The notes under the pieces were generated by a model, which saw only the letters and a program-made list of their open reading frames with translations, made no database searches and had not been told where the DNA came from. DNA of 41,409 nucleotides, taken from Candidatus Rokuibacteriota bacterium. GTDB lineage: Bacteria > Methylomirabilota > Methylomirabilia > Rokubacteriales > CSP1-6. Both the position numbers and the translations under genes were made by a program. Shown piece after piece: positions 23,588 through 41,409 of the stretch. Position 1 is the stretch's first letter. Every line of letters starts with the position of its first letter. The stretch is taken from assembly GCA_003220495.1 (NCBI GenBank), contig QHSP01000064.1:2880-44288 (forward strand), in the 5' to 3' direction.

Positions 23588-25186
23588 TCATACCGCACAG
23601 CGCAACAGACGATACACGACCATTTCCGCGGCGCCGGCCACCTCGTTGTGCTCCAAACGGATGCGATAGATCGGCTCGAGCGTCTCTCGGCTCGCGGCGA
23701 GCCGGGGGAACCACGCCGGGAAAATGATCACGTACTCGGGACACGTCTCCGCCACGTACTCCATCACGCCCGACTCTCCGCGACGTCGATAGGGGATGAT
23801 GCCCGGCGTCACGAGCCCCATCAGGTCGATGATCTCTCGACGCGAGAAAAACGTGATCGCGCCGATGTCGTTCAGCGCGATCCGCGCGGTCTTCGGGAGC
23901 TGCGCGTCGACCCAGCGTCCGAGGTGGACCTGCATCGCATTGATGTTCTGAACCGCCCACGCGTAGCGCGTCGCTGCCGGCACGAGCGCCGCCGCCGCCA
24001 GCGCGAGCCACACCGCTCCCGCAAGCGCTCCCACCCACGCATGCCGTGGGGGGGCCGGTCTGGCGGCGATGGGTGGTGGGTCCCCGACTGGCGGAGTGGG
24101 CGTGTGACTGAGCAGGTCGGGGACCCAGCCATCGCCGCCCCAGCGACCGCCCAGCGCGACCGCGAGCGTGATCACGACGAGCGGCAGGAGGTGGATCGAG
24201 TAGCGTCCCTCCTGGAAGGCTGGGCCGCGATAGGGGGCGAGCAGCGCCATGCCCAGCGGGTGAGCGATGAGCGCGAGCGTGACGAGGCCGAGGGTGCGAC
24301 CCGCTCGACGCCACACCAGGACGAGCGCGGGAGCGAGTGCCACGGGCAAGAGCCCGTGAATCGTCGCCAGCCAGACGATCCATTCCCGGAGAAATGCGAG
24401 CGGTCGTCTCACCCACGTGAGCGCCGCCGGCTCGCGCACACCGCCGAGCCACCCAACGAGGCCCCCCTCGACCTTGGCGGCGGCGGGCGCCGGATACGGT
24501 GTGCCGGCGGTCCAGAGGCTGAAGAAGACGGCGGGCGCCACGACCACGAGCGTGACGACCGCGAAGACGCCGACGCGGCGGAGGGTCAGCGGGCGCGCGG
24601 CGACGAGGAATGGGACGAGAAGGAGCGCTTCTGGACGCGCCAGCACGGCCAGTGCTGCGCACGCGGTGGACGCGAGCTCGTGATCGTGTGCGTGCGCGAG
24701 GAGCGAGGCGGCCACCAGGAGCGCGGCCAGCGAGACCTCCATCCCGGACAGCGCTCCCCAGACGACCGGCCCCATCCAGAGAAGCGCCATCGACGCGACG
24801 AGCGCGACGTCGCCCCGTGCCCCCCAGGCGCAGGCCGCCCGGCGTGTGACCAGCGCCGCGGCCAGGGTCGCCAGGACGCCGATGACCTTGGCCATCGCGA
24901 GCGAGGGCGAGGCCACGAGGGCACCCACGCCGAGCAGCACGGTCCACAGGGGCGCGGTCGACCCGGCAACGGGGATCCCCGGGTTGTAGGCGAAGCCGGC
25001 GCCGGCGGCGAGGTTGCGCGCGAAGTGCAGATGGATCCACGAGTCGTCCAGCGGGAAACCGGGGGCCCCGGCAACCTGCCACTCGCGCGCGACGAAGAGC
25101 GCGAGCGGGGGCAGGGCCGCGGCGACTACGAGACCGTCAGCACGCCACCGAGCGAGGCCGGCGGGACGCTCACCGCGATCGAGCAC
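23588..25186 (-). CDS. Polytopic GT-C-like glycosyltransferase with an in-frame palindromic insert
   Basis: The 532-residue membrane protein has about ten hydrophobic segments and the N-terminal loop FPLDDSWIHLHFARNLAAGAGFAYNPG, in which the DD pair and the FARN motif resemble GT-C-type lipid-linked-sugar glycosyltransferases. A soluble C-terminal domain (about 410-532) follows. It starts with GTG at 25186, overlapping the upstream membrane gene by 17 bases. Residues 350-375 are encoded by a 78-bp palindromic element lying between two predicted helices, so the reading frame is kept. Sugar donor and acceptor are unknown. Confidence 0.75.
   Translation of the reverse strand: MLDRGERPAGLARWRADGLVVAAALPPLALFVAREWQVAGAPGFPLDDSWIHLHFARNLAAGAGFAYNPGIPVAGSTAPLWTVLLGVGALVASPSLAMAKVIGVLATLAAALVTRRAACAWGARGDVALVASMALLWMGPVVWGALSGMEVSLAALLVAASLLAHAHDHELASTACAALAVLARPEALLLVPFLVAARPLTLRRVGVFAVVTLVVVAPAVFFSLWTAGTPYPAPAAAKVEGGLVGWLGGVREPAALTWVRRPLAFLREWIVWLATIHGLLPVALAPALVLVWRRAGRTLGLVTLALIAHPLGMALLAPYRGPAFQEGRYSIHLLPLVVITLAVALGGRWGGDGWVPDLLSHTPTPPVGDPPPIAARPAPPRHAWVGALAGAVWLALAAAALVPAATRYAWAVQNINAMQVHLGRWVDAQLPKTARIALNDIGAITFFSRREIIDLMGLVTPGIIPYRRRGESGVMEYVAETCPEYVIIFPAWFPRLAASRETLEPIYRIRLEHNEVAGAAEMVVYRLLRCAV
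24062..24139. repeat. 78-bp palindromic element inserted in frame in a coding sequence
   Basis: The outer arms GGCGGCGATGG (24062-24072) and CCATCGCCGCC (24129-24139) are perfect inverted copies, as are the inner arms TGGGTCCCCGAC (24077-24088) and GTCGGGGACCCA (24116-24127). Bulges are GTGG on one side and G on the other, and the loop is 27 bases. The symmetry continues imperfectly to about 24054 and 24150. The length is 26 codons exactly and the ends fall on codon boundaries. No second copy was noticed in this window. Confidence 0.8.
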
Positions 25187-31681: not shown

Positions 31682-31779
31682 TGGCGGAAGCGTATGGGAG
31701 TCGAACCCATCGACCGTTTGTCTAGAACGGTCCACCGGATTTGAAGTCCGGGAGGCCCACCGGGTTCCTAGACGCTTCC
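31682..31779 (-). tRNA. selC: tRNA-Sec (anticodon UCA)
   Basis: The minus strand folds into the bacterial selenocysteine tRNA: an 8-bp acceptor stem (GGAAGCGT/ACGCTTCC), a 5-bp anticodon stem CCGGA/TCCGG with loop CTTCAAA (anticodon TCA), a long variable arm with a 7-bp stem (GACCGTT/AACGGTC) and a T arm ATGGG-TTCGACT-CCCAT. That gives the 8+5 acceptor-T helix typical of bacterial tRNA-Sec. G73 and CCA are encoded (31685-31682). The D arm has two A-G mismatches as I draw it. The gene starts the sel operon; a weak TTGCCG-N18-TTATCG lies just upstream. Confidence 0.95.
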
Positions 31780-35117: not shown

Positions 35118-35148
35118 CCGGACGCCGGCCCTAGCGGCCGGCGTCCGG
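35118..35148. terminator. Bidirectional hairpin between convergent genes
   Basis: CCGGACGCCGGCC (35118-35130) pairs perfectly with GGCCGGCGTCCGG (35136-35148) around a 5-base loop CTAGC. It stands 24 bases after the stop of the plus-strand gene, and the TAG stop codon of the minus-strand gene (35133-35131) is in the loop. T-runs are weak on both sides. Confidence 0.65.
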
Positions 35149-37288: not shown

Positions 37289-39811
<2,523 letters not shown>

Positions 39812-40977: not shown

Positions 40978-41011
40978 AAAAACGTGAAGGGGGCCGCATA
41001 GGCCCCCTTCA
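40978..41011 (-). terminator. Rho-independent terminator of the rRNA operon
   Basis: GAAGGGGGCC (40986-40995) and GGCCCCCTTC (41001-41010) form a 10-bp stem with a 5-base loop, followed on the minus strand by ACG and five T residues (40982-40978). It sits 10 bases beyond the 5S gene. It may also stop the convergent rhomboid transcript. Confidence 0.85.
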
Positions 41012-41020
41012 TTGAATTAA

Positions 41021-41136
<116 letters not shown>

Positions 41137-41244
41137 AATCGAAGTCTCGCGCCGGCAATGCCCCGCCGACGCGCCGGACACGGAGACTCTTGAGCATAGG
41201 TAGACGATGCTCTGACACTTTTCAGTGATGCTGAGAAAAAATCG

Positions 41245-41409
41245 TGGTCAAGCCGCACGGGCGATTAGTACCGGTCAGCTGAACGCCTTACAGCGCTTAC
41301 ACCTCCGGCCTATCAACCTCGTAATCTGCGAGGGCCCTTCAGAGGGCTTGCGCCCTGGGAGGTCTCATCTTCAGGCGGGTTTCGCGCTTAGATGCCTTCA
41401 GCGCTTATC
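41245..41409 (-). rRNA. rrl: 23S ribosomal RNA, 3' end (partial)
   Basis: The minus strand reads into the conserved 23S 3' end, with GGTACTAATCG near 41262-41272 and AGGCCGGAGGTGTAAGCGC at about 41295-41315, and finishes near 41245. The gene continues beyond the right edge. The 108-base spacer to 5S (41137-41244) shows no tRNA. Confidence 0.95.

Follow-up and report, generated by a model that had tools for sequence, protein, structure and literature searches.

The stretch of DNA analysed here (the window; 41,409 nucleotides of assembly GCA_003220495.1 from a soil bacterium, Candidatus Rokuibacteriota bacterium, contig QHSP01000064.1, positions 2,880 to 44,288) carries on its minus strand (23588-25186) an open reading frame for a multi-helix membrane protein of 532 amino acids, which is interrupted in frame by a 78-bp palindromic element (24062-24139, minus strand). 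This palindrome is probably the shrunken remnant of a "core A" element, a hairpin of Rokubacteria that resembles the miniature inverted-repeat transposable elements (MITEs) and that would have landed in a tolerant loop of the protein. The host protein is predicted to be a GT-C-type membrane glycosyltransferase of the ArnT/AftB-like kind: the top PDB matches of its AlphaFold2 model (predicted local distance difference test, pLDDT, 83) are ArnT (5f15) and AftB (9dlh), searches of Pfam and NCBIfam with the protein gave no match, and orthologues of the gene are found in 27 of 59 relatives. As an earlier interpretation made from the letters alone (the sequence-only reading) had proposed, the 78 bp make up exactly 26 codons (residues 350-375, GGDGWVPDLLSHTPTPPVGDPPPIAA) in the loop between two membrane segments; the structure prediction places them inside a disordered stretch (residues 349-378, pLDDT < 50) flanked by helices 328-346 and 383-429.

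The same reading was right about the two nested pairs of perfect arms. The outer pair of 11 bp consists, on the minus strand, of GGCGGCGATGG on the 5' side (24129-24139) and CCATCGCCGCC on the 3' side (24062-24072), and the inner pair of 12 bp of TGGGTCCCCGAC (24116-24127) and GTCGGGGACCCA (24077-24088); the two pairs are 3 nt out of register, being separated by gaps of 4 nt and 1 nt. They enclose a residual core, CTGCTCAGTCACACGCCCACTCCGCCA (24089-24115), in which the 5' base of core A, GCTCnGTCAC, is joined to its 3' base, CCCACTCCGCC; about 45 nt of core A are missing between the bases, as they are in copy L033 of the sister species G007. A zone of imperfect pairing with 28-nt arms (79% complementary) extends around the palindrome at about 24049-24152. 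That an ordinary codon-biased, Pro/Gly-rich loop should show such repeats as a chance by-product of GC-richness is barely credible: the window does contain 23 perfect arms of at least 10 bp, but a nested pair of arms of at least 11 bp occurs once in the real window and in none of 120 dinucleotide shuffles of it, and the palindrome folds as a single strand with z = -5.1, which none of 200 shuffles equalled. The palindrome is real, and at the level of the family described below the chance reading is already refuted.

Comparison of 40 distinct orthologous loop sequences points the same way. The ordinary loop has 41-52 residues, and those of the window species and five others have 78-89; an inverted repeat is present in every one of the six long loops (at least 78 residues), its arms measuring 9-19 bp, and in most short loops no arm reaches 9 bp. 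The close orthologues (in genomes G006, G003, G004, G005, and G002; G000 being the own genome of the window) all lack the 26 residues, which is the outcome that the sequence-only reading had anticipated for an insertion. In the nearest relatives, G006 and G003, the element is absent from loops of 60 and 67 residues, and G006 keeps a small palindrome, GGCGGGGCCCCGCC. The G007 orthologue carries, at the same place in the loop, an insert (L006) with a near-complete core A, and the G008 and G001 orthologues hold a third core, core C (CCACGC...CCCTGACAACACGGGTC), which is dispersed and recurs, flanked by long arms, at other places in G007 and G006. In a protein tree built without the loop, the insert-free G004 and G002 fall outside a seven-species group on a moderately supported branch. 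One old insertion followed by loss in G005, shrinkage in G006 and G003, and a change of core would be the parsimonious, if not proven, course of events.

Several other inserts were encountered in these comparisons. Copies of core C (L007, L008, L135, L136) have variable, nearly perfect arms, and L134 may hold a fourth core; assignment of the L007 insert to core B (see below) was rejected, as 167 of 1000 shuffles matched as well, and the insert matches core C instead. A second family, GATGGGGGGCCCCGAAATGGCCCCCCATACCCCCC (L010/L137, L138-L146; genomes G025 and G018), resembles repetitive extragenic palindromic (REP) sequences and occupies about 50 places in G025, some of them in tandem, and one copy sits in frame in this very loop of the glycosyltransferase gene. 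L051, from RIFCSPLOWO2_02_FULL_72_37, entered that loop independently; its perfect arms of 17 bp read TTGTAGCGGGGGCCGCG, and no relation to cores A-C was seen as far as the comparison went. No link to core A was made for the L010 and L051 inserts, and L010 belongs to the different, REP-like family.

The own genome contains no direct copy of the 78 bp, because that sequence is what remains of a larger element (~140-250 bp) after deletion of its core. The further copies sought by the sequence-only reading therefore do not exist for the 78-bp sequence itself, but core-related palindromes are dispersed inside and outside genes, in the own genome as well as in relatives. The G007 orthologue's insert is one of 27 places in G007 with matching sequence, G000 holds 12 relatives of it, and the weak DNA matches of the window palindrome fall on core-A copies. 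When aligned, these copies share a structured core of ~65 nt, CTCCGTCACCCACTCGCCCGAATCGCAGCTCTTCGAGCTGCGGACGGGACGAGGGGGTCCCACTnCG, between arms of 20-60 bp (median, 38 bp) that are nearly perfectly complementary, with few mismatches, and differ in sequence in almost every copy; it is the core and not the arms that defines the family, the arm sequence turning over. With a covariance model (R1) built from 33 copies, about 21 places are recognised in the own genome and about 28 in G007; five other congeneric species have fewer, and G005 and G008 have none. Across the phylum the model scores in 25 of 95 genomes, some of them from another GTDB family (copy counts are model-based, gene calls come from a home-made codon model, and the genomes of this group all seem to have been assembled from metagenomes). 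The best R1 match in the whole window is the palindrome itself (26.2 bits, E = 0.0046), with the arms and both core ends in exact register and the middle of the core missing. Model score and register, not long identity, mark it as a core-deleted, degenerate member of the core-A family. The short form inside arms was recognised only in L033 and the window palindrome; the corresponding pattern, GTCACN{0,5}CCACTNCGCC, showed no excess over a reversed control in nine genomes and proves nothing alone. Elsewhere, at L154 (G007) and L151 (G000), two oppositely oriented core-A copies are separated by about 300 bp.

These matches bear on the view that the palindrome arose locally, by a template switch that duplicated host sequence in inverted form within a GC-rich unconstrained loop and involved no mobile element. 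The loop is indeed disordered and length-variable, the outer part of the arms of L008 and L006 pairs with host-like flank (VALG codons versus QRN codons), and template switching produces such repeats, as far as the account in PMC8604942 goes. Such an origin is nevertheless improbable, as it does not account for a residual core in exact register with a dispersed family, for the presence in the G007 orthologue, at this very position, of nearly the whole core of a family with 28 copies, or for another dispersed core in the G008 and G001 orthologues.

Elsewhere in these genomes, insertion can be read from empty orthologous sites. The L123 site lies between two convergent genes, whose stop codons are no more than a few bases apart in G008, G001, and G004; the element is present there in G000 and G007, and also, with an inverted core, in G006. 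Other species likewise show empty sites at L149 and L168 (with a short outer-arm-like piece left in G006 at L149), and at all three sites the flanks join in relatives without the core and inner arms; at L168, the empty site GGGCTAGCCGGCC corresponds to GGGCTAG, element, GCTCGCCGGCC in the filled one. Arms and core together are therefore the insertion; the idea that the arms are host sequence copied at insertion was rejected, the tightest empty sites lacking both arms. Better preserved copies elsewhere are MITE-like units of ~210-250 bp with terminal inverted repeats, CCCGGAYTATTCATGAACG, and CTAG target duplications. In its fuller form, seen outside the genus, the unit consists of this terminal repeat, outer arms with a conserved asymmetric bulge (GGGTCCTGTCGC versus GCGCCACCC), variable inner arms, and the core. 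The terminal repeat was found in G007, G003, G029, G021, and G031, with no control matches, and was absent from G000 at the stringency used. Paired terminal repeats lie 91-253 bp apart, except for a few longer pairings that span a second element, and CTAG is present on both sides in 7 of the 16 listed elements with terminal repeats and is partly mutated in others. Young, near-identical copies are represented by 42 matches in G087 and 33 in G085. In 187 kb of the own genome, 35% of the CTAG sites are stop codons, and the core lies within 120 nt of the stop codon in 46 of the 47 copies that have a sense upstream gene; most copies adjoin stop codons because of this CTAG target, which offers a simple way of landing between genes harmlessly.

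The long stems of these elements change in sequence while staying paired. Across copies, 16 of 19 modelled arm pairs have changed on both sides (covariation, 0.278 versus 0.077 in shuffled data). Between L123 and L155, at an orthologous site, 25 of 43 pairs have changed on both sides with 1 unpaired, and between the LigD copies L129 and L316, 18 of 40 have done so with none unpaired, the core remaining 84-87% identical. Orthologous copies in which a 40-bp stem has changed at nearly half its positions and kept its pairing make the maintenance of long stems, by compensatory selection or by template switching, directly testable. Among 1128 arm pairs, mismatches of the G-T type number 8 and those of the A-C type 16; few intermediates and no sense-strand excess of wobble pairs favour correction at the DNA level over stepwise selection on RNA. 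As far as the reports in PMC8604942 and PMC8794818 go, template switching homogenises the arms of inverted repeats, inverts spacers, and maintains hairpins, and the opposite orientation of the core in G006 at the L123 site fits this process. Maintenance of the arms by DNA template switching is the best-supported inference.

The competing explanation for the paired changes is that the element functions as RNA: selection for RNA pairing would maintain a hairpin that serves at the 3' ends of mRNAs as a terminator, stabiliser, or protein-binding site, and the copies inside genes would be by-products. This view draws on a core that is 84-95% identical between orthologous copies while the arms turn over, on covariation in the internal helix of the core, and on the arrangement of neighbouring genes: in tandem contexts the core is downstream in sense orientation in 27 cases versus 13 in antisense, and divergent contexts are rare (3 of 63). 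This explanation is nonetheless rather unlikely, given the rarity of wobble pairs, near-perfect stems of 40-60 bp that exceed the needs of a terminator, the lack of a U-tract, and a position at stop codons that the CTAG target accounts for. No Rfam family is evident either: in Rfam 15, the window palindrome and related copies gave no match at the gathering score, and in E-value mode one weak microRNA-family match far below threshold. A role of the core at mRNA ends, though unproven, is conceivable in view of its conservation, the covariation inside it, and the moderate bias towards sense orientation downstream of genes.

Core A also occurs in frame in other genes, in each case in a linker: between the ligase and primase-polymerase domains of LigD in G007, G000, G006, and G003; between the B12 and radical-SAM domains of a CUAEP-type B12-radical-SAM protein of G007; and between the POR and DUF6537 domains of an indolepyruvate oxidoreductase beta-family protein of G007. 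The core-A DNA of LigD is 84-94% identical between species, but its reading frame in G007 differs from that in G000, G006, and G003, so it is the nucleic acid that is conserved and not the peptide; the encoded peptides differ accordingly (GSVTHSPESQLFELR in LigD of G007, AASPARPLSAALRAAGG in LigD of G000, and SPTRPNRSSSSCG in the radical SAM protein). In LigD of G004, G002, and G001, similar outer arms enclose core B; some elements with terminal repeats in G029 have this core, too, as their apical module. Core B (GTCGCGGGACCACGCGGC...GGCTGGGCTCCATC...GGGAACGGGTCCC) has been seen between variable arms in L276, L278, L279, L281, L268, L269, and L331-L333, several of which share the terminal repeats of core A; in LigD of G008 (L330) it sits in the linker with the frame broken across it (a stop and a frame change), through decay or an assembly error.

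At two genes, then, the same palindrome has different cores in different species: A in G000 and G007 and C in G008 and G001 at the glycosyltransferase gene, and A in four species and B in three or four at the LigD linker. These differences may have come about when elements recombined with each other, when one element inserted into another, or when a tolerant site was hit more than once. A bolder and tentative proposal, to which we give somewhat less than even weight, is that of a new, modular class of palindromic mobile elements, in which one hairpin scaffold (terminal repeats and outer arms) would take interchangeable conserved cores A, B, and C, the stems would be rewritten yet kept complementary by DNA template switching, cores would be swapped in place in living frames, and the cores would be a functional nucleic-acid motif conserved across GTDB families. 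If this were true, host proteins would carry a swappable linker.

The course of events that we consider probable for the window palindrome begins with an intact element that would form a single long hairpin of terminal repeats, outer arms, and fast-changing inner arms, with the conserved structured core at its tip. Such elements insert at YTAR/CTAG with a 4-bp duplication, by means of a DDE transposase presumably supplied in trans, so that in these GC-rich genomes most of them reach stop codons. Now and then one would hit coding sequence and would survive there only if it lay in frame within a linker or loop. Once an element is inserted, its terminal repeats would decay, and the stem would persist, complementary despite sequence turnover, most likely because template switching during replication copies one arm onto the other; the same process could also yield inversion, loss, or exchange of the core. 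In the window gene, the core would have been lost by recombination between direct CCCACTC repeats, leaving the arms and a 27-nt loop, and the core-deleted form in G007 (L033) fits a deletion between the two copies of CCCACTC that the core contains. Several points weigh against this account. The window palindrome retains just short core matches (shuffle p about 6e-4 against the short consensus, and an E value that applies within the window). Terminal repeats are present in better preserved copies from other genera and in a few from the genus itself, but the window palindrome has none, nor does it show a recognisable target duplication. A single ancestral insertion requires the G005 loss together with the G006 and G003 shrinkage; selection on an RNA stem could also yield the paired changes; and around the terminal-repeat sites inspected in six genomes (not every site), no terminal-repeat pairing of insertion-sequence size with a transposase was seen.

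Other features of the window include terminator-like, perfect inverted repeats with 11-13 bp arms and a 5-nt loop (35118-35148, 38034-38062, and 40985-41011), a tRNA-Sec gene (31682-31779; in G007, a CUAEP-tail radical SAM (seleno)protein has an in-frame core-A copy), and, at the window end (41020-41409), a 5S rRNA gene and the 3' end of a 23S rRNA gene.

The literature searched yielded no publication that deals with repeats of this kind in Rokubacteria, and the core-A family is an undescribed family of mobile hairpin elements. Like bacterial MITEs (Correia/NEMIS, ERIC, RUP, and BOX), its members are short and non-coding, have terminal inverted repeats and 4-bp CTAG duplications, carry no transposase gene, and could give hairpin transcripts; unlike those, they keep the core constant and rewrite the arms, one scaffold takes several cores that are exchanged in place, and no partner insertion sequence has been identified. 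Their position at gene 3' ends and their many copies recall REP sequences, but those are 20-40 bp long with a GTAG or CGTC tag (PMC3733652), whereas core-A elements are ~90-250 bp long with CCCGGAYTATTCATGAACG ends. Long perfect inverted repeats in reading frames are also described for mitochondria of Nematomorpha; as far as the account in PMC6649704 goes, those are repeats within one animal organelle genome, whereas core-A elements are dispersed copies with a core in common, and empty sites exist for them. The comparison drawn by the sequence-only reading was with Rickettsia palindromic elements (RPEs). Its mobile part is borne out by a dispersed in-frame and intergenic family with empty sites and target duplications, while the 78 bp themselves are a degenerate remnant with no demonstrated Rickettsia homology; the likeness is one in kind, no RPE sequence having been compared, and the elements are not classed as RPEs. 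As with RPEs, dispersed palindromes are found both between genes and in frame in unrelated genes, where the protein tolerates them, and in-frame palindromes with other genomic copies occur in the window gene, LigD, and the radical SAM and indolepyruvate oxidoreductase genes. The differences from RPEs are that conservation lies in the DNA of the core, whose reading frame varies so that no conserved peptide is encoded, that the arms vary, that the host is GC-rich, and that relatives have terminal repeats and a CTAG target. The insertion of palindromic repeats in frame into proteins is thereby extended from Rickettsia to the free-living, GC-rich Rokubacteria.
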